A stretch of 64,000 nucleotides of DNA from Bacteroidota bacterium (lineage in GTDB: Bacteria > Bacteroidota > Bacteroidia > Bacteroidales > GCA-2711565), in the NCBI GenBank assembly GCA_018816945.1, contig JAHIVC010000015.1:1-64000 (forward strand), in the 5' to 3' direction. The translations under genes were made by a program, and so were the position numbers. Position 1 is the stretch's first letter; each line of letters opens with the position of its first letter. Of the stretch, positions 39,042 through 50,002 are shown piece after piece. The notes below the pieces were generated by a model. It was given only the letters and a program-made list of their open reading frames with translations. It was not told the origin of the DNA and ran no database searches.

Positions 39042-39165
39042 TTTTTTAATGATTATTTTTGAATGATTAATGAATAATGTTCACAAAAATAGAATTAATC
39101 TACATTTAACTAATCATTGACCATTAATCATTTTTCATTATTTTAGCATACCTAAAAAAATAACC

Positions 39166-41245: not shown

Positions 41246-43372
41246 ATGAAACGAATTATTTTATTGTTCGCCACCTTTTGCTTTTTAATGATCTCGAATT
41301 TTTCAAATGCCCAGCAGCTTGAACTGCCCAGGATTTTAAAATGGCTGGATGACGAAAATTATCTGGAATTAAAAACGGAAGCCAAGGTTTCCAAAGTGTA
41401 TAAAGTAAATGCTAAATCCGGCAAATCTGTGTTATTTGAAGATCTGAGTTATGAAGATGTTGTTAAAAAGAATCTTCCTGAAGGCTTTACTTTGGATCGC
41501 GCTGCGATAACTACCGAAGACTATAAAAGTGTTGCATTGATTAAGGATAATAATCTTTATTATTATTCCCGGATTAAAAATAAGTTTAAAGCACTAACCG
41601 ACAATCCATCAGCAGAGGTAACCCCAGAGTTTTCTCCTGATGAAAACAGAATTGCTTTTACCCGCGATCATGATCTATATTATATAGATATTGAATCAGG
41701 GCTTGAACATCGACTTACCAATGATGCAACCGATGTAATTTATAATGGGTATTCATCATGGGTTTATATGGAAGAAATTTTGGGAAGAGCTACCGCACAT
41801 CAGGCATTTTGGTGGTCGCCCGACAGCAAAAAAATTGCATTTCTTAGATTCGATGACACTAAAGTTCCAATGTTTCCGCTTTATCGTGCAGATGGAATTC
41901 ATGGCGAACTTGAACTTACACGTTATCCAAAAGTGGGTGATCCAAATCCGGAAGTAAAATTAGGAGTTATTGATCTGGAAACTAAAAAACTTACCTGGTT
42001 CGATTGTAATTGCGATGAAGATAAATACATTGCATTTCCTGTCTGGACCAATGATTCAAAGAAATTCTTTTATCAAACCCATAACCGCGAGCAGAACAAT
42101 TTGAAAATTTATCTTGTAGATCTGGCTAGTGGCGAAAAGAAAGAAATCTACAACGAAAAACAAGAAAAATATATCGAGTTTTATACCGATTTGTATTCTT
42201 TAAAAGATGGAACAGGTTTTATTGTAAGAAGTGATAAAAGTGGATGGAATAATTTATATCATTACACTTTAGAAGGGAAACTCGTTCATCAAATTACGAA
42301 TGTAAATTGGAGGGTAAATGGTATTGATAATGTAGATGAGAAAAAGGGCGTAGTTTATTTTATGGGAACAGGCGAAAAATCAATTGAGAATCATCTTTTT
42401 AGTGTAAATATGGATGGGAGCAAATTAACGCAACTGACCAAAGAAGCTGGAACACACCGTGCCATGATTTCGCCAAACAATCAATATTTTATCGATACCT
42501 ATAGCAATATTAGCACTCCCACCCGAAGAGAATTATTCAAAGCCGATGGTAAATTTGTGCGCTTTCTTGGAGCCGATAAAGGTGCTGATCCTGCCAAAGG
42601 AGAAATAGCTAAAGTTGAAATATTTACCATTCCTAACCCCGATGGTTTTGACATGCCTGCCTGGTGGGTGCTACCCGAAGGATTTGATCCTGCAAAAAAA
42701 TATGGAGTTGTGTTCCAAATTTATGGGGGTCCTGACAGTAAAAATGTGAACAATCGCTACACCAATCCGCAAGAGAATTACCTTACAGAAAATGGGATTA
42801 TCCGTTTTGCTGTTGACCATCGAGGTTCAGGGCATTTTGGCAAAAAGGGCCTGAATGAATTTTACGGTCATTTGGGAAGCATCGATATTCAGGATTATAT
42901 TGTGGCAGTAAAATGGTTGATTGCACAAGGTTTTGTTGATGAAACTAAGATTGGCATCACCGGCGGAAGTTATGGCGGATACATGACCGCTATTGCCTTG
43001 ACCAAGGGTTCGGATTACTTTACGCATGGTTTTGGGAGCTCTGCTGTTATTGATTGGCGATTGTACGACAATGTTTATACCGAGCGTTATATGGGCACGC
43101 TTGAAAAAAATAAGGATTTGTACGAAGCCGGAAATGTAAATAATTTCGCCGATCGTTTAAAAGGTAAATTATTTATGATTCACGGAACCATGGACGATAA
43201 TGTTCACATGCAAAATATTATACAATTTGTTGATACCTTGACTGAGTTGAAAAAAGATTTTCAATTCATGTTATATCCAAATGGGCGACATGGCTGGGGC
43301 GGCAACAAAAGGGTTCATTCAACAAATTTACAGAAGCAGTTCTGGTTGGATAATTTAACTCCAGATAAATAA
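41246..43372 (+). CDS. Exported S9-family prolyl peptidase (dipeptidyl-peptidase IV-like)
   Basis: 708 residues. Signal peptide about 1-22 (NAQQ). N-terminal beta-propeller (about 60-470) carrying the Glu pair in WVYMEEILGR that holds the substrate N-terminus in DPP-IV, then an alpha/beta-hydrolase domain with nucleophile S575 (GGSYGGYM), Asp at 650/651 (GTMDDNVH) and H682 (GRHGWGG). It releases X-Pro dipeptides from peptides in the periplasm. A strong terminator follows 4 bp after the stop. Confidence 0.94.
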   Translation: MKRIILLFATFCFLMISNFSNAQQLELPRILKWLDDENYLELKTEAKVSKVYKVNAKSGKSVLFEDLSYEDVVKKNLPEGFTLDRAAITTEDYKSVALIKDNNLYYYSRIKNKFKALTDNPSAEVTPEFSPDENRIAFTRDHDLYYIDIESGLEHRLTNDATDVIYNGYSSWVYMEEILGRATAHQAFWWSPDSKKIAFLRFDDTKVPMFPLYRADGIHGELELTRYPKVGDPNPEVKLGVIDLETKKLTWFDCNCDEDKYIAFPVWTNDSKKFFYQTHNREQNNLKIYLVDLASGEKKEIYNEKQEKYIEFYTDLYSLKDGTGFIVRSDKSGWNNLYHYTLEGKLVHQITNVNWRVNGIDNVDEKKGVVYFMGTGEKSIENHLFSVNMDGSKLTQLTKEAGTHRAMISPNNQYFIDTYSNISTPTRRELFKADGKFVRFLGADKGADPAKGEIAKVEIFTIPNPDGFDMPAWWVLPEGFDPAKKYGVVFQIYGGPDSKNVNNRYTNPQENYLTENGIIRFAVDHRGSGHFGKKGLNEFYGHLGSIDIQDYIVAVKWLIAQGFVDETKIGITGGSYGGYMTAIALTKGSDYFTHGFGSSAVIDWRLYDNVYTERYMGTLEKNKDLYEAGNVNNFADRLKGKLFMIHGTMDDNVHMQNIIQFVDTLTELKKDFQFMLYPNGRHGWGGNKRVHSTNLQKQFWLDNLTPDK

Positions 43373-43526: not shown

Positions 43527-43541
43527 AAGAACAACTTGAAT

Positions 43542-43651
43542 TTTGACTTCTCCCATTAAGGATTTTGACTTCTCTCATTCCGGGTTTTGACTTCTCTCAT
43601 TCCGGGTTTTGACTTCTCTCATTTTGGGGTTTAACTTCTCGTGCTAGGCGG
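43542..43651. repeat. Five tandem copies of a 22-bp repeat (TTTGACTTCTCTCATTCC-like)
   Basis: Units start at 43542, 43564, 43586, 43608 and 43630. Units 2 and 3 are identical; unit 4 differs at the 3' end (ATTTTGGGG), unit 1 in several positions and unit 5 most. There are no spacers and no cas genes. Confidence 0.9.
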
Positions 43652-43789: not shown

Positions 43790-44278
43790 TTATTTAATAT
43801 AATTGGAAGCATCAAGTTTTGTAACGGTCCAGTCGTTGAAAAAACCAATCAATTTCTTTTTGTCGTATGATTTTTCAAGCTCAAGATAAGCAGAATTTTG
43901 GGTATGGATTCTTTGCCCATCCTGATCTAAAATTACAATAACCGGAAACCCTAATCTTTGAGGAAATTCTAATTTCGACAGCACGGGCATATTGGTATGT
44001 TCCTTATCGTAGTTCACTTTAACCACCTCGTAATTATCATAAAGTGCAGCTTTTATTTCAGCATCTTCGTTAATAAATTTATTCAGTCGCAAGCACCATG
44101 GGCACCAATTGCCTCCAATAACAATCAATACATGTTTGTTTTTTTGTTTTGCCATTTCAACGGCTTTTTTGATATCAGCAGCAGCATCTGCATTTTCATC
44201 ATAAACTTTTTCGGTCTGTGCTTGTGCAAATAGTAAAGTCATTGCAAACACCAATGTTAGTATAATTTGCTTTTTCAT
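43790..44278 (-). CDS. Exported thioredoxin-fold protein (CPWC)
   Basis: 162 residues. Signal peptide 1-20 (AQAQ) and a thioredoxin-like domain with redox motif C59-PW-C62 in GGNWCPWCLRLNKF; cis-Pro in LGFPVIVILDQDGQ. The NENADAAADIKKAVEMAKQKNKHVLIV lead resembles DUF255/thioredoxin_7 proteins. Likely periplasmic disulfide reductase or isomerase; partner unknown. Faces the mutA gene head to head across 183 bp. Confidence 0.9.
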   Translation of the reverse strand: MKKQIILTLVFAMTLLFAQAQTEKVYDENADAAADIKKAVEMAKQKNKHVLIVIGGNWCPWCLRLNKFINEDAEIKAALYDNYEVVKVNYDKEHTNMPVLSKLEFPQRLGFPVIVILDQDGQRIHTQNSAYLELEKSYDKKKLIGFFNDWTVTKLDASNYIK

Positions 44279-44375
44279 AGCTCTCTTTTTTATTCATGGC
44301 GAATTTAATACAATTCTTTATTCTATCAATATGATAAAAATCATTGTGAAATAATTAACAATATTTTGGTTGCAT

Positions 44376-44408
44376 TTTGATTTAAGGAAATATTTTATTG
44401 TAACTTTG
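44376..44408 (+). promoter_or_regulatory. Promoter of mutA (TTTG-N21-TAACTTTG)
   Basis: -33-like TTTG at 44376-44379, 21-bp spacer, exact -7 TAACTTTG at 44401-44408; expected start near 44414, giving a leader of about 48 nt to ATG 44462. It is the best-spaced promoter on the plus strand in the window. Confidence 0.7.
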
Positions 44409-44461
44409 CAGCCATTTTTGACGGAAACAACATATTATTAAAGAATTGTGAACTAAAAAAT

Positions 44462-46327
44462 ATGAATTCAAAAGAAACAAATTCCAAAAAATTATTTCAG
44501 GAATTTCCTTCTGTATCAACCTCCGAATGGGAAGACATCATCATTAAAGACCTGAAAGGAGCTGATTACGATAAAAAGCTCGTGTGGAATACCAATGAAG
44601 GAATTAAGATAAAACCGTATTATCGTGCCGAGGACCTTGAAAACATTCAGCATATGGGTTCTTACCCGGGTGAATTTCCTTATGTAAGAGGTAATTCGAC
44701 CGATAATAATAACTGGTTAATACGTCAGGATATTATTGTCGACGATATAAAGGAAGCCAACGAAAAAGCATTGTTTGTGCTCGGCAGAGGGGTAGAATCA
44801 ATCGGGTTTATTCTTACTGAAATTTTATCGGTTAAAGAATTCCGTGCTTTACTTATTGGGATAATTCCAGAGGTAGTAGAAATTAACCTCATTTGTGCTT
44901 CTCATTTCAGCGAGGTTCTGACTAATTTCATTGCTGCCCTAAAAGAAAAAAAGGCGAATTTAAGCGAGGTGAAGGGTTCGATTACATACAATCCATTGAC
45001 CGATATGGTTTTAACGGGCATGAGTGCCGACTTGCGTGAAGCAAAAGAAATCATGGAATTAACCAGTAATCTGCCGAAATTCAGAACATTGGTAGTGCAT
45101 GGTAGTATTTTTCATAATTCAGGGGCTTCGGCTGTTGAAGAATTGGGTTTTTCATTGGCTACTGCTGCCGAATATTTGAATCAACTTACAGAAAAAGGAA
45201 TCTCAATCGATGAACTTGCCCCGAAAATGAGATTTGATTTTGCAGTAGGGGGTAATTATTTCATGGAAATTGCAAAAATACGTGCAGCAAGAATGTTGTG
45301 GGCAAAAATGGTGGCTGCTTATTATCCAAAAGATTTAGAAGTTGCAAAGATGTTTGTTCACTCAACCACATCCTCCTGGAATAAAACCGTTTATGATCCT
45401 TATGTAAATATGCTCCGTACAACTACCGAGGCTATGTCGTCGGTGATTGGAGGAACAGATTCATTAACTGTTAATGCGTTTGACGAATCTTTTCAAACTC
45501 CTGGTGAATTTGGTGAACGCATTGCCCGTAACCAGCAATTATTATTAAAGGAGGAATCCTATTTAGATAAAGTAGCAGATCCTGCAGCAGGTTCATATTA
45601 TATAGAAACTTTGACTGCTTCTATTGCTGAGGAAGCATGGAAAATTTTTCTGGCAACAGAGGAAAAAGGTGGTTTTATCGAAGCCTTGAAAGCCGGTTTT
45701 GTTCAGGATACCATTTATGCTACTGCTCAAAAACGAGATCAGGATATTGCAAATCGCAGGGAAATTTTTCTGGGGACCAACCAATTCCCGAATTTCAATG
45801 AAAAACTGGAGTTGAACCTTGAAGAAGATATCTTTGAAGCCGCTGATTTTAGTTCTCAAAAATCGAGGAATAAAACCCTAAAACCTTATAGGGGTGCCCA
45901 GGCTTTTGAAGCCTTACGTTATAAAACAGATCTGTTTGCCAGAGAGAATAAGCGTCCCCTGGCATTTATGCTTACTTATGGAAATGTTGGCATGCGTAAA
46001 GCAAGAGCAACTTTCGCCAGCAATTTCTTCGCCTGTGCAGGTTTTGAGGTGATGGATACCAATGGTTTTAAATCAGCCGAAGAAGGCGTAAAAGCAGCTA
46101 AAGCAGCCAAAGCAGAGATCATTGTTGTTTGTAGTTCAGATGAAGAATATACAGCGTTGGCACCGGCAGTAAAAGCCCTTTCCGGAGATGAAATCGTTGT
46201 AGTAGCCGGATATCCAAAAGAAATTATCGAAGATTTGAAAGCGATAGGCATTCAACATTTCATTCATGTAAAATCGAATGTGTTGGAAACGTTGAAACAA
46301 TTTCAGGCTGAGTTGGGGATTAAGTGA
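44462..46327 (+). CDS. mutA: Methylmalonyl-CoA mutase small (beta) subunit
   Basis: 621 residues. The N-terminal (beta/alpha)8 barrel region is recognisable ([58 protein letters not shown]). The C-terminal B12-like domain (about 500-621) lacks DxHxxG, as expected for the non-catalytic subunit of the heterodimer. With MutB it interconverts methylmalonyl-CoA and succinyl-CoA. In most genomes mutB follows directly; here a small four-helix-bundle gene is inserted in between. Confidence 0.95.
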   Translation: MNSKETNSKKLFQEFPSVSTSEWEDIIIKDLKGADYDKKLVWNTNEGIKIKPYYRAEDLENIQHMGSYPGEFPYVRGNSTDNNNWLIRQDIIVDDIKEANEKALFVLGRGVESIGFILTEILSVKEFRALLIGIIPEVVEINLICASHFSEVLTNFIAALKEKKANLSEVKGSITYNPLTDMVLTGMSADLREAKEIMELTSNLPKFRTLVVHGSIFHNSGASAVEELGFSLATAAEYLNQLTEKGISIDELAPKMRFDFAVGGNYFMEIAKIRAARMLWAKMVAAYYPKDLEVAKMFVHSTTSSWNKTVYDPYVNMLRTTTEAMSSVIGGTDSLTVNAFDESFQTPGEFGERIARNQQLLLKEESYLDKVADPAAGSYYIETLTASIAEEAWKIFLATEEKGGFIEALKAGFVQDTIYATAQKRDQDIANRREIFLGTNQFPNFNEKLELNLEEDIFEAADFSSQKSRNKTLKPYRGAQAFEALRYKTDLFARENKRPLAFMLTYGNVGMRKARATFASNFFACAGFEVMDTNGFKSAEEGVKAAKAAKAEIIVVCSSDEEYTALAPAVKALSGDEIVVVAGYPKEIIEDLKAIGIQHFIHVKSNVLETLKQFQAELGIK

Positions 46328-46332
46328 GCTAA

Positions 46333-46384
46333 GATACAAGACGCAAGACACAAGACGTTAGATGCTAGAAAACAGACAATAGAG
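46333..46384 (+). repeat. Degenerate heptanucleotide array (GAYRCAA-like), seven units
   Basis: Consecutive 7-mers GATACAA, GACGCAA, GACACAA, GACGTTA, GATGCTA, GAAAACA, GACAATA run from 46333 to 46381 and end 3 bp before the ATG of the four-helix-bundle gene. All begin with GA. Confidence 0.75.
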
Positions 46385-46741
46385 ATGCATAATTTTTTAG
46401 AATTGAAGGTATGGCAGAAGTCCAGAGAATTGGTAAAGAAGATTTACCAGTCAACGGTTGATTTTCCAACCGTTGAAAAATTTGTCTTGGAATCCCAGAT
46501 TAAAAGATCTGCGATATCAATTTCTTCAAATATTGCTGAAGGAGCTGGCAGAGAGACATCAAAAGAGTTTAGTAGGTTTCTAGATATCGCCTCCGGATCT
46601 GCTTTTGAACTTGAGTCACAAATTATACTTGCTTTGGATTTAGAGTTCATCAATCCGAAAGCTGGAGAAACGCTGATAAATGACATTAAAGAAATACAAA
46701 AAATGATAAATGGATTTAAAGTTTCGTTGATCAAGTCTTGA
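46385..46741 (+). CDS. Four-helix-bundle protein (S23/23S rRNA intervening-sequence protein family)
   Basis: 118 residues, all helical. The family pattern is clear: LELKVWQKSRELVKKIYQ at the start, FPTVEKFVLESQIKRSAISISSNIAEGAGRETSKEFSRFLDIA in the middle and SAFELESQIILALDLEFI. Members occur in intervening sequences of 23S rRNA genes and, as Avd, in diversity-generating retroelements; they form pentamers and bind nucleic acid in the Avd case. Here it stands alone between mutA and mutB, bordered by heptad repeats of opposite orientation and a GC-rich palindrome. No reverse transcriptase is in the window. Likely an inserted cassette; function unknown. Confidence 0.9.
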   Translation: MHNFLELKVWQKSRELVKKIYQSTVDFPTVEKFVLESQIKRSAISISSNIAEGAGRETSKEFSRFLDIASGSAFELESQIILALDLEFINPKAGETLINDIKEIQKMINGFKVSLIKS

Positions 46742-46744
46742 TAC

Positions 46745-46784
46745 CCTGCCTGCGGCAGGCAGGTTGCATCTTGATACTTGAGTC
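46745..46784 (-). repeat. GC-rich palindrome plus inverted heptad units downstream of the four-helix-bundle gene
   Basis: CCTGCCTGC (46745-46753) and GCAGGCAGG (46755-46763) form a perfect palindrome. TTGCATC, TTGATAC, TTGAGTC (46764-46784) follow; on the minus strand they read GACTCAA, GTATCAA, GATGCAA, the same motif as the array at 46333-46384 but inverted. Confidence 0.75.
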
Positions 46785-46798
46785 TAAAAAAATAAATC

Positions 46799-48955
46799 AT
46801 GAAACCAAATTATAAAGAAATTAACATCAAGAGTCAGGAAAAACAATCAATGACGGCAAGCGGATGGGAAAAAGCAAACCATATTGCAAACGATTGGAAA
46901 ACTCCTGAGCAAATCGACATAAAAACAGCTTTCACCAAAGCCGATTTGGAGGGCATGGAGCATTTGAATTATGCTGCCGGAAAAGCACCATTTTTGCGTG
47001 GGCCATACTCTACCATGTTCGTAATGCGACCATGGACCATTCGACAATATGCGGGATTTTCTACAGCAGAAGAATCCAATGCATTTTATCGCAGAAACCT
47101 TGCTGCCGGTCAAAAAGGCTTATCCGTTGCATTCGACCTGGCCACTCACCGTGGTTATGATTCCGATCATGAAAGGGTGGAAGGCGATGTTGGTAAAGCG
47201 GGGGTAGCTATCGATTCGATCCTGGATATGAAAATTCTTTTTGATCAAATCCCTTTGGATAAAATGTCGGTTTCGATGACCATGAATGGTGCGGTTTTGC
47301 CTGTTTTGGCATTTTATATTGTTTCAGGCTTGGAGCAAGGCGTTCCATTGGATCAATTAAGCGGAACCATCCAAAATGATATTTTGAAGGAATTTATGGT
47401 GCGTAATACCTACATATATCCTCCTTTACCATCTATGAAAATCATAGCAGATATCTTTGAATACACTTCTAAAAATATGCCGAAGTTTAATTCGATCTCC
47501 ATTTCCGGTTACCACATGCAAGAGGCTGGTGCAACTGCTGATATTGAATTGGCTTATACCTTGGCCGACGGATTAGAATATTTGAGGGCAGGGGTAAATG
47601 CCGGAATGGACATAGATACATTCGCCCCTCGTCTATCATTTTTCTGGGCTGTTGGGATGAATCATTTTATGGAAATAGCCAAAATGAGAGCTGCCCGAAT
47701 GCTTTGGGCGAAGATTGTTAAACAGTTTAATCCAAAAAATCCTAAGTCAATGGCACTTCGAACCCACAGCCAGACTTCAGGTTGGAGCTTAACCGAACAG
47801 GATCCATACAATAATGTGGGACGTACTTGTATCGAAGCAATGGCTGCGGCACTTGGTCACACCCAATCATTGCATACCAACGCTTTGGATGAGGCCATTG
47901 CTTTGCCAACTGATGCTTCAGCGCGTATTGCACGAAATACACAGATTTATATTCAAGAAGAAACCAATATTTGTAAAACGGTCGATCCTTGGGCAGGTTC
48001 TTATTATGTTGAAAAATTAACCCATGAAATCGCACATAAGGCGTGGGAACTAATCGAAGAAGTTGAAGCGTTGGGCGGTATGGCAAAAGCGATTGAAACA
48101 GGATTGCCAAAAATGCGTATAGAAGAAGCATCTGCAAGAAAACAAGCACGTATTGATGCAAAAAAAGATACGATTGTTGGGATCAACAAATATAGATTGG
48201 ATAAACAGGATCCCATCGAAACCTTGGAGGTTGACAATACGGCGGTTCGTTTATCGCAAATTAAGAGATTGAAGAAATTACGTGCCGAACGAAATAATGA
48301 AGAAGTTGAACTTGCCTTAAATGCAATTACTAAAGCTTGTGAAACAGGTGAAGGAAATTTATTAGCTTTGGCAGTTGATGCAGCTCAGAAAAGGGCTTCG
48401 TTAGGTGAAATTTCAGATGCATGCGAAAAAATATTTGGGAGGTATAAAGCCGTGATAAGATCAATTTCAGGAGTATATTCATCAGAATCGGGTGATGACG
48501 GGCAATTCAAAAAAGCCTGTGAAATGGCCGATCAGTTTGCCGAATTGGAAGGTCGTCGCCCACGAATTATGATTGCCAAAATGGGCCAGGATGGTCACGA
48601 CCGAGGCGAAAAGGTTGTGGCAACAGGTTATGCCGACATGGGATTTGATGTGGACATCGGTCCATTGTTCCAAACACCGGCCGAATCGGCCCGCCAGGCT
48701 GTTGAAAATGATGTGCATATATTGGGCGTATCAAGTTTAGCCGCCGGACATAAAACTTTGGTTCCTCAGGTAATTAAAGAACTAAAAAAATTAGGTCGTG
48801 AAGATATCATGGTAATTGTTGGAGGAGTAATCCCTGCTCAGGATTATGAGTTTTTATACAAGGCTGGTGCCGTTGCTATTTTTGGTCCCGGAACCGTGGT
48901 TTCCGAATCCGGCATTAAGATGCTGGAGATTTTGATTGATTCAAGAAAAAGATAG
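46799..48955 (+). CDS. mutB: Methylmalonyl-CoA mutase large (alpha, catalytic) subunit
   Basis: 718 residues. N-terminal barrel binds CoA and substrate ([41 protein letters not shown]), and the C-terminal cobalamin domain has D598-G-H600-DRG, His600 being the lower axial cobalt ligand, followed by [22 protein letters not shown]. Adenosylcobalamin-dependent isomerisation of methylmalonyl-CoA and succinyl-CoA, used in propionate metabolism. Partner of MutA upstream and of MeaB at 10.9 kb. A terminator follows. Confidence 0.97.
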
Positions 48956-48982
48956 ATTAATAATTATATTATTGAAGATAAG

Positions 48983-49011
48983 CAGCTCTCAAGAAATTGG
49001 GGGCTGTTTTT
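48983..49011 (+). terminator. Terminator after mutB
   Basis: CAGCTCTC (48983-48990) pairs with GGGGGCTG (48999-49006, two G-T pairs) and is followed by TTTTT. Confidence 0.65.
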
Positions 49012-49031
49012 ATATAAAGACAGAAGATGTT

Positions 49032-49066
49032 AGCAAATAGCCAAAAGCTAAAAGCCAACTGCCAAA
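49032..49066. repeat. Five-unit heptanucleotide array (AGCCAAA)
   Basis: 7-mers AGCAAAT, AGCCAAA, AGCTAAA, AGCCAAC, TGCCAAA in a row, just after the mutB terminator. Same unit length as the array at 46333 but a different motif. Confidence 0.7.
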
Positions 49067-49135
49067 TTTTGTAACTTAGCAAGAATGGAAAATCCTATCA
49101 AACAACTATCTCCTATTTTTGGATAAAATTATGCA

Positions 49136-50002
49136 ATGAAAGGAAGAGGAGAAACCATCAAAGATTATCAGGAGCGCATTAACAAGGTGCTGGTTTATAT
49201 CAGCGAACATCTGGATGAAAAACTGGAACTTGAAAAACTGGCTGCAATGTCAAATTTTTCTGTATTTCATTTTCATCGGATTTTTAGGGCATTCCTGAAT
49301 GAGCCACTTGGAACATTTGTAACGCGTTTACGATTGGATTATGCAGCAAAATTATTGGAATTTGGTACCGACCCGATAAGTGAAATTGCATATAAAGTTG
49401 GATTTGAGGTTCCTTCTTCTTTAAACAAAGCTTTTAAGAAACGATTCGGCGTTACACCTGTGGAATTCCGTGAAACAAAAAAGGCTTTGATCCCTTTCGA
49501 TTTTATTCATTTAAACAGTAAGGCTATGGAACTAAATTTAAAACCACAGATTAAAGAAATTAATGAGAAAAAAGTAATTTATGTTCAAGCAATTGGCAAA
49601 TATGCTGATTCGGCGGGAAAAGCATGGGATCAATTATGCGAATTCATGAAGCAGGAAAAATTATTTACGTTTGGATTAGAAACTATTGGAATTGGACATG
49701 ATGACCCCAGTGTGACCGACAGTGATAAACTTCGGTATGATGCATGCATGACTATAAAAAAAGATGTTCAACCAAAGGGAAACATTGGCGTGAAAGTCAT
49801 TGCCGGGGGAAAGTATGCCATCTTCAAATACAAAGGTCCTTATACCAATCTTGAGCAGGTTTATAATTATATTTTCAAGAATTGGTTACCTGCTTCAAAT
49901 TATGAGTTAGAAGATAAGCCATGTTTTGAAAAGTATTTAAACAATCCCGAAAAACATAAACCTGAAAACTACAAAACACACATCTATGTGCCATTGAAAT
50001 AG
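49136..50002 (+). CDS. AraC-family transcriptional regulator with GyrI-like effector-binding domain
   Basis: 288 residues. N-terminal AraC HTH pair (about 10-110): LEKLAAMSNFSVFHFHRIFRAFLNEPLGTFVTRLRLDYAAKLL then ISEIAYKVGFEVPSSLNKAFKKRFGVTP. C-terminal GyrI/AraE_bind-like domain (about 130-288), the layout of the Rob/SoxS-like group that binds hydrophobic or toxic small molecules. Its targets are not visible; it stands alone, divergent from none. Likely senses a small compound, possibly for drug or stress tolerance. Confidence 0.92.
   Translation: MKGRGETIKDYQERINKVLVYISEHLDEKLELEKLAAMSNFSVFHFHRIFRAFLNEPLGTFVTRLRLDYAAKLLEFGTDPISEIAYKVGFEVPSSLNKAFKKRFGVTPVEFRETKKALIPFDFIHLNSKAMELNLKPQIKEINEKKVIYVQAIGKYADSAGKAWDQLCEFMKQEKLFTFGLETIGIGHDDPSVTDSDKLRYDACMTIKKDVQPKGNIGVKVIAGGKYAIFKYKGPYTNLEQVYNYIFKNWLPASNYELEDKPCFEKYLNNPEKHKPENYKTHIYVPLK

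Follow-up and report, generated by a model that had tools for sequence, protein, structure and literature searches.

A four-helix-bundle (S23) gene between heptad arrays in the mutA-mutB operon of a Bacteroidota bacterium probably belongs to a family of minimal mobile cassettes

The window, by which we mean the whole stretch of 64,000 nucleotides of a Bacteroidota genome (G000) that was analysed, carries a small gene between the two methylmalonyl-CoA mutase genes mutA and mutB (Table 1). The initial annotation had named it a four-helix-bundle gene of the S23/IVP family, and profile searches bore this out, with matches to PF05635 (23S_rRNA_IVP; E 2.6e-39, 134.1 bits compared to a curated cut-off of 33.8) and to TIGR02436 (four helix bundle; 121.6 bits compared to a curated cut-off of 24), while the mutA product scored 590.6 bits with the small-subunit model TIGR00642, slightly below its cut-off of 617. 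Between the two arms of short repeats which flank the gene, the only open reading frames of 80 or more amino acids are the S23 gene itself and one antisense to it (46444-46800), and no transposase or recombinase was found among open reading frames of this size inside the cassette. An Rfam search of positions 44000-50000 gave no match up to E 0.5, and the cassette does not lie in an rRNA helix but between mutA and mutB. The closest relative found, L125 from HGW-Bacteroidetes-17, has the same cassette in the same place, with a gene product that is 93% identical.

Table 1. Genes and repeat features at the mutA-mutB junction of the window
Feature	Position	Strand	Basis or remark
mutA, methylmalonyl-CoA mutase small subunit, upstream host gene	44462..46327	+	ORF and profile match
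5' arm, seven 7-bp units starting GA	46333..46381	+	units 1-3 strongly alike, last four weak
four-helix-bundle gene (S23 / 23S_rRNA_IVP), 118 aa	46385..46741	+	profile matches PF05635, TIGR02436
3' arm, inner two heptads, GTATCAA and GACTTGA on reverse strand	46731..46744	-	by eye; overlap gene end; uninterrupted counterpart in L125
19-bp REP-like palindrome, 9-bp arms, 1-nt centre	46745..46763	.	exactly between two heptads; absent in L125
3' arm, outer three heptads, GACTCAA, GTATCAA and GATGCAA on reverse strand	46764..46784	-	sequence reading
mutB, methylmalonyl-CoA mutase large subunit, downstream host gene	46799..48955	+	ORF and profile match

The upstream array had been described as seven GA-starting units of 7 bp ending 3 bp before the ATG, and this holds, with GAG lying between the arm and the start codon. 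Compared with itself at a lag of 7, the arm matches at 28 of 42 positions (4-17 matches at lags 3-6 and 8-11), a value reached by 3 of 21,317 segments of 49 nt taken at every third position of the 64 kb, and 49-mers with GA at all seven unit starts number 3 on the plus strand and 0 on the minus strand. In L125 only the first part of this arm is present, its last 27 nt being absent. On the downstream side, where a palindrome and three inverted units had been proposed as the border, the three units stand and two more were found, making five inverted units of which two overlap the 3' end of the gene and three lie past the palindrome, but the palindrome is ruled out as a cassette end as it sits at a unit boundary inside the 3' arm and is missing from the continuous 3' arm of L125. 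Because L125 has the same cassette without it, the palindrome is best read as an insertion separate from the cassette. Exact copies of it number 11 in G000, 11 in G003 and 3 in G001 (0 for a control pattern) and none were found in G002, G004 and G005; Y1 transposase (PF01797) matches occur in all 6 searched genomes of the genus and such transposases may account for the palindromes, with no tie to the cassette seen.

The match between the window copy's own arms is weak (score 9, reached in 135 of 2000 shuffles, and with the longer 3' arm reached in 643 of 5000) and not significant alone, while the arms of L125 match significantly (score 13, 0 of 5000 shuffles). The predicted RNA fold of the window cassette nevertheless pairs the arms around the gene (z -3.18, 0 of 100 shuffles), and so a stem of terminal inverted repeats around the S23 reading frame is found in the arms of L125 and in the fold of the window copy. 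Elsewhere in the window there are two further period-7 arrays, at 49024-49070 and 39107-39143, which have no four-helix-bundle gene, and a 22-bp tandem repeat at 43541-43640 (4.5 copies, 89% matches) downstream of a reading frame ending at 43372.

PF05635 is matched in at least 44 of the 60 genomes searched, G000 counted, and G000 itself has 25 matches, of which 24 are above the cut-off and two are pieces of one broken gene. The initial annotation had raised the possibility that heptads flank other copies of the gene as well, and they do. A set of 128 four-helix-bundle genes with full flanks was assembled from many genomes, 60 regions among the matches listed being used and 8 four-helix-bundle and 3 GxxExxY genes dropped for having less than 200 nt of flank. 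A period-7 or period-8 array lies on at least one side of 103 of the 128, compared to at most 10 of 165 control genes, these controls coming from 11 arbitrarily chosen stretches of G000 and not from many genomes. Arrays were found upstream of 82, downstream of 79 and on both sides of 58 of the 128 (5, 5 and 0 of the 165 controls respectively), and when the set was restricted to G000, from which the controls come, an array was found at 17 of 23 genes and on both sides of 10 of 23. By lag, 77 of the 128 genes have an array at lag 7 and 32 at lag 8, with 0-7 at the remaining lags from 5 to 12, compared to 10 of 165 controls at lag 7 and 0-5 at the others. At the threshold used, no array was found for 25 of the 128 genes.

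By inspection, most copies are flanked by short tandem units, mostly of 7 bp, whose word frequently recurs in reverse complement across the gene, and the word differs between most copies. This rules out a single heptad word as a signature of the family, and of the initially proposed inverted heptad borders the inverted arms therefore stand, but not as classical terminal inverted repeats. The pattern AAGANNN, for example, occurs 51 times in G000, spread over 11 contigs with 32 occurrences on contig C29 (22 for a reversed-pattern control), and the window copy is the only four-helix-bundle match which any of these adjoins. Contig 29 starts within a 398-nt heptad array of the AAGATAC / AAGATTC type (L110:1-398), where a very long array has probably interrupted the assembly.

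Across 822 kb of G000, in regions picked around these genes and known arrays and so not a genome average, arrays number 59 at lag 7, 32 at lag 8, 38 at lag 14 (twice 7) and 0-8 at lags 4-6 and 9-13. When the threshold was relaxed and arrays were merged, 33 of the resulting 108 fall within 250 bp of a four-helix-bundle gene, which is 2.3% of the 822 kb, and the arbitrarily chosen stretches (L114-L124, 220 kb) hold 12 of the 108. The other 75 of the 108 lie away from any such gene, and among 66 array clusters so placed only 11 form a strong hairpin; heptad arrays therefore exist beyond the S23 gene, and that they are always hairpins is ruled out.

The two arms of one copy resemble each other more than they resemble the arms of other copies. 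Alignment of each upstream arm with the reverse complement of the downstream arm of the same copy gave a mean score of 22.3, compared to 11.9 when arms were swapped between copies, and the own score exceeded the swapped 95th percentile in 78 and all 30 swaps in 65 of the 128 copies. Direct (non-inverted) matching of own arms gave a mean of 18.4 and exceeded the swapped 95th percentile in 26 of 128, being raised because some flanks carry units in both directions. Predicted RNA duplexes agree, at -44.2 kcal/mol for own arms compared to -27.1 kcal/mol for swapped arms, with 74 of 142 below all 12 swaps.

The arms also follow the protein. Among pairs of copies which come from different genomes and have non-homologous flanks (119 genes), an arm score of 20 or more was found for 148 of 4023 pairs below 30% protein identity, 61 of 1506 at 30-40%, 51 of 666 at 40-50%, 50 of 269 at 50-60%, 25 of 71 at 60-80% and 3 of 3 above 80%. 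The arms thus travel together with the gene, since their similarity climbs with protein identity at unrelated sites. A Mantel test, in which same-genome pairs were included, showed that 1 of 200 permutations reached the observed arm-protein correlation. Taken over all pairs this correlation has a Spearman value of 0.09, which is small, and the arms therefore evolve much faster than the protein. Genes with fewer than 85 profile positions were excluded here, leaving 119 for the Mantel test and the flank pairs and, where incomplete flanks could be allowed, 127 for the protein tree and the residue counts.

The S23 protein is under purifying selection, dN/dS being 0.08-0.22 in all 7 pairs compared (6 with G001 and one, the window gene at 0.22, with L125; dS was above 1 in two). 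The L102 (contig 10) and L104 (contig 27) copies of G000, at 0.12 and 0.08 compared to G001, are strongly diverged four-helix-bundle genes with no array found, kept in place in G001, and are candidates for domesticated copies. Several polar residues are near-invariant in the 127 aligned rows (E75 99%, E52 98%, Q38 98%, S45 97%, N49 88%, R41 82%) and may act in binding or catalysis. Of the family motif reported as GxxRxxxSxxxNxxE (PMC3936711), the window protein has RxxxSxxxNxxE as R41, S45, N49 and E52, and the first motif position is Q38 rather than G. The solved relatives 2gsc and 2rld were each deposited with five chains and the Xanthomonas relative is reported as a pentamer (PMC4990558). 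The family is reported to be homologous to Avd (PMC10053308), and the Avd models gave sub-cut-off matches (NF033474 at 35.1 bits compared to 80, E 1.3e-8; PF22296 at 32 compared to 40).

If the cassette is mobile, then the mutA-mutB junction should be empty in some relatives, as the initial annotation had pointed out, and empty junctions are common. Of 80 mutA loci examined, 66 have mutB downstream, and at these 66 junctions there are 29 gaps shorter than 60 nt, 13 four-helix-bundle genes (L127 included) and 5 GxxExxY genes, the remaining 19 being 17 gene-less gaps which were tested for hairpins, one run of N and one gap of 3.7 kb. Heptad hairpins (lag 7 of at least 16 of 21 and a hairpin above all 60 shuffles) are present at 5 of the 17 gene-less junctions (L126, L132, L133, L141 and L144), and at a further four (L128, L145, L161 and L169) the hairpin exceeds all shuffles but no lag-7 array is present. 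On the protein tree of 127 rows, which has few columns, the mutA-mutB position needs at least 2 changes (5-7 in bootstraps), and because of this, provided that the tree is correct, there was more than one entry into the junction, although most of the mutA-mutB group could descend from one old insertion followed by losses. Sixteen of the 127 genes sit at this junction, a share inflated by the fetching of loci by mutA.

The GxxExxY (TIGR04256) genes found between mutA and mutB (L140:5890-6282, L183:3614-3931, L190:5931-6323, L195:2916-3302 and L201:3722-4210) have inverted arms of irregular units, for example ACACAAAG / CTTTGTGT. Their own arms match inverted in 17 of 35 and directly in 11 of 35 cases, and arrays were found in 0 of 35 at lag 7, 5 at lag 8 and 4 at lag 9. 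With no lag-7 array among the 35 they are not supported as the same element as the S23 cassette, and the GxxExxY gene appears to be another small-gene cassette, which occupies sites of the same type.

Other sites also differ between sister genomes, all of which are draft assemblies in which mis-assembly or mis-binning at repeats is possible. In a second operon, running from an enoyl-CoA hydratase to an electron-transfer flavoprotein (names assigned by eye), 4 of 7 junctions are in differing states among 4-6 genomes of the genus, these states being the gene, a decayed gene, gene-less arrays or an empty junction of 7-51 nt with no heptads seen. At the ACAD-ETFB junction the arms are TTGTTTCAT / ATGAAACAA in G000 and TGTTCAATTG / CAATTGAACA in G003, both arms having been altered in step. 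The HBD-thiolase junction holds a decayed four-helix-bundle gene (L094:8112-8492), the frame of which is broken by an internal tandem duplication; this site is a gene-less array in G001 and a short empty junction in G003, G004 and G005.

A further 18 sites of G000 were probed against G001, where 10 could be located, their flanks being mostly 88-94% identical. Five of these 10 are conserved (L087 (75%), L092, L100 (87%), L102 and L104). At L101 the cassette is inverted between its own arms in the sister genome with collinear flanks, and an assembly flip is unlikely here because the left arm, at about 50 nt, can be spanned by reads. At L096 the copy is replaced in G001 by a different four-helix-bundle gene with different arms, L098 is a gene-less hairpin of another word in G001, at L090 the gene is lost and frayed arms remain, and the L088 site is rearranged. 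Filled and other states were compared by eye at about 75-90% identity, gain is not always separable from loss in these comparisons, and the heptads blur the edges at which target-site duplications would be seen.

The family is not confined to Bacteroidota. By tblastn, S23 genes were found in 30 plasmid records, of which 15 were taken, picked for spread; with a Riemerella record (L343) left outside the count, the 14 copies comprise 11 from Cyanobacteriota and one each from Pseudomonadota, Gemmatimonadota and Spirochaetota. Arrays lie upstream of 12, downstream of 11 and on both sides of 9 of these 14, and with Riemerella included the own inverted match beats all 14 swaps in 11 of the 15 copies, the direct match being stronger than the inverted in 3 (L331, L342 and L344). 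The plasmid copies sit between cas6 and cas4, cmr2 and cmr3, nrdB and nrdA, and other pairs, the heptad-armed genes of cyanobacterial plasmids L331, L335 and L337 accounting for two cas6-cas4 positions and one cmr2-cmr3 position. Eighteen IVP genes have been reported in cas loci (PMC3936711) and a second survey lists the family with CRISPR loci (PMC10910872). Our data suggest that this published association may reflect insertion and not function, the insertion of cassettes being able to explain why the family is listed there. Small S23-family genes annotated between cas or metabolic genes may likewise be insertions and not partners, and therefore guilt by association can mislead.

We consider that the window feature probably belongs to a family of minimal mobile DNA cassettes, each roughly 0.45-0.55 kb and with one S23/four-helix-bundle gene, lying between arrays of 7-bp (sometimes 8-bp) units which are mostly inverted on the far side. 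The small mobile cassette suggested by the initial annotation is thus supported by comparison of sequences, through the arrays, the arm matching and the differences between sites. Its ends are best read as defined by the period and the mutual match of the arms and not by a fixed sequence, and arms which track each other without a fixed sequence are unlike the terminal repeats bound by transposases.

An RNA-level origin of the arms was weighed against this, in which the feature would be an intervening sequence of the mRNA, its arms under selection to pair as an RNA stem from which RNase III could excise the loop with the gene, and mobility would be secondary. The stem of the Coxiella S23 intervening sequence (IVS) is reported to be cut by RNase III (PMC4990558), the fold of the window copy pairs its arms around the gene as described above, copies between two co-directional neighbours are in excess (96 of 121, compared to 322 of 540 background triples of G000; 7 of the 128 genes without two called neighbours were excluded) and the arrays are strand-biased, purines making up over half of 59 of 82 upstream arrays and under half of 49 of 79 downstream arrays. 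However, 25 of the 121 copies are antiparallel to one or both neighbours, one copy lies antisense in a sister genome, and the arms show no preference for the transcript strand. G.U compared to A.C mismatches (sense) in aligned arms were 161 and 205 (95 loci), 125 and 156 (70 loci) and 90 and 90 (the 43 strongest), and with earlier settings 213 and 325, 197 and 292, and 148 and 196; the sense duplex was stronger than the antisense in 65 and weaker in 77 of 142. Selection for an RNA stem as the source of arm matching is thus unsupported, the G.U test, which is weakened by heptad redundancy, being even or opposite in direction, and we hold this explanation to be rather unlikely. Some RNA role of the cassette is nonetheless possible, because the fold pairs the arms, co-directional neighbours are in excess and upstream arrays lean towards purine. 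It is unlikely, too, that the heptad hairpin is the mobile entity and the gene a passenger in some copies, with the gene-less hairpin as the basic form: gene-less dyad arrays do occur at 5 of 17 mutA-mutB junctions and, by eye, at operon junctions of sister genomes, and GxxExxY genes share the mutA-mutB junction with another kind of inverted arms, but arms follow the protein at unrelated sites, the protein is under purifying selection and arrays are concentrated at S23 genes.

The arrays could in principle be ordinary heptamer slippage in intergenic regions where a small host gene lies by chance, as one survey found heptamers to be the most frequent of the longer simple repeats in the majority of genomes (Mrazek 2007, cited in PMC4679880), 75 of the 108 arrays are away from the gene and the controls also peak at lag 7; this is improbable given the arrays on both sides of 58 of 128 genes (10 of 23 in the control genome itself) and none of 165 controls, the excess of within-copy over between-copy arm matching and the sites which differ between relatives. 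For retro-mobility on the model of diversity-generating retroelements, by an Avd-like protein together with a reverse transcriptase in trans, there is the fold family common to Avd (PMC10053308), yet no RVT_1 match was found in G000 (99.5% complete), G001, G002, G003 and G005 (G004 has 2, and 30 of the 60 genomes searched have one); the link to retroelements and a genome-encoded reverse transcriptase which the initial annotation had brought up is therefore unsupported in G000, and we regard this route as very improbable. We think it scarcely credible that the gene encodes an accessory subunit of its host operon, of methylmalonyl-CoA mutase here and of CRISPR-Cas elsewhere. The inflated mutA-mutB share of the tree genes and the reported cas loci would fit such a role, but 13 of 66 mutA-mutB junctions hold the gene, the others holding other genes or none, and the same family sits between unrelated genes, 169 of 7021 gene pairs sharing homologous flanks.

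For the mobile cassette, we suggest that a DNA-level process would keep the arms alike, through slippage within an array together with template switching or conversion between the arms as a quasi-palindrome. Template switching at quasi-palindromes is an established DNA process, and a process at this level is preferred over RNA pairing because the arm mismatches show no transcript-strand preference for G.U. With less confidence, the S23 protein might be the element's own factor, binding the arms as hairpins or single strands, and host replication or recombination enzymes might cut and join the cassette. The rRNA IVS would be the same type of element landed in an rRNA helix.

S23 IVSs in rRNA have been known for decades with no agreed function or way of moving, and the heptamer repeats of bacteria have no agreed origin. 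Similar cassettes with other repeat words occur in several bacterial phyla, and may provide a link between the two. More tentatively, the cassettes could be a new class of minimal autonomous mobile element of about 0.5 kb, whose sole product is a ring-forming S23 protein of 12-14 kDa, which would use operon junctions and rRNA helices to spread across many phyla, the known heptamer arrays of cyanobacteria, Xanthomonas and Beggiatoaceae being its remnants. If the cassette reading is right, S23 IVSs and bacterial heptamer repeats may be parts of one type of element. This could then be studied in ordinary operons, where sister genomes naturally provide sites that are filled, empty, inverted or without the gene. 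In the open-access literature searched, no paper was found which connects S23 genes with heptad arms and with mobility outside rRNA.

Among known systems, the cassettes differ from insertion sequences and transposons with terminal inverted repeats in having no terminal sequence common to all copies, as the arm scores within and between copies show. MITE and REP elements are short, intergenic and built of inverted repeats. The cassettes are like them in this, and the 19-bp palindrome is itself REP-like, but the cassette codes for a conserved protein and its arm sequence is not common to most copies. With the Avd protein of diversity-generating retroelements (bAvd, PF22296 / NF033474) the S23 protein shares a four-helix-bundle family, but here it stays below the Avd cut-offs in a genome without an RVT_1 match.

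Published heptamer repeats include TAACTGA in Beggiatoaceae, Cyanobacteria and Bacteroidetes (PMC4679880), and GGGAATC in Xanthomonas and GGGGA(C/T)T in Nostoc, the Xanthomonas heptamers forming 70-75 inverted pairs per genome and being described as generally unlinked to mobile elements (PMC4692102). They resemble the arms in their 7-bp length, in being largely intergenic and often upstream of starts, and in that some form inverted pairs, but the available text of these studies treats one word each and names no carrier gene, whereas the cassettes have many words per genome and one gene family. The closest counterpart is the S23 IVS in the 23S rRNA of Coxiella burnetii, where two or three GACAGAT heptamers and a GACAGAA precede the S23 ATG and a 28-bp terminal inverted repeat forms the stem, and for which a mobile element was already suspected by earlier authors (cited in PMC4990558); CPR rRNA insertions carry the S23 family too (PMC11270868). 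Like the cassette, the Coxiella IVS carries a single S23 gene looped out between terminal inverted repeats which pair as a stem, and it has tandem heptamers immediately upstream of the ATG (their number varying by strain in Coxiella), a patchy spread and a similar size (428-444 nt; PMC4990558). Unlike it, the cassettes lie in protein operons in many copies per genome with differing heptad words, and their protein is under purifying selection, whereas Coxiella S23 is reported to be decaying and probably not made (PMC4990558). The cassette is best read as a minimal mobile element that is built like the S23 intervening sequence known from rRNA but lies in protein operons.
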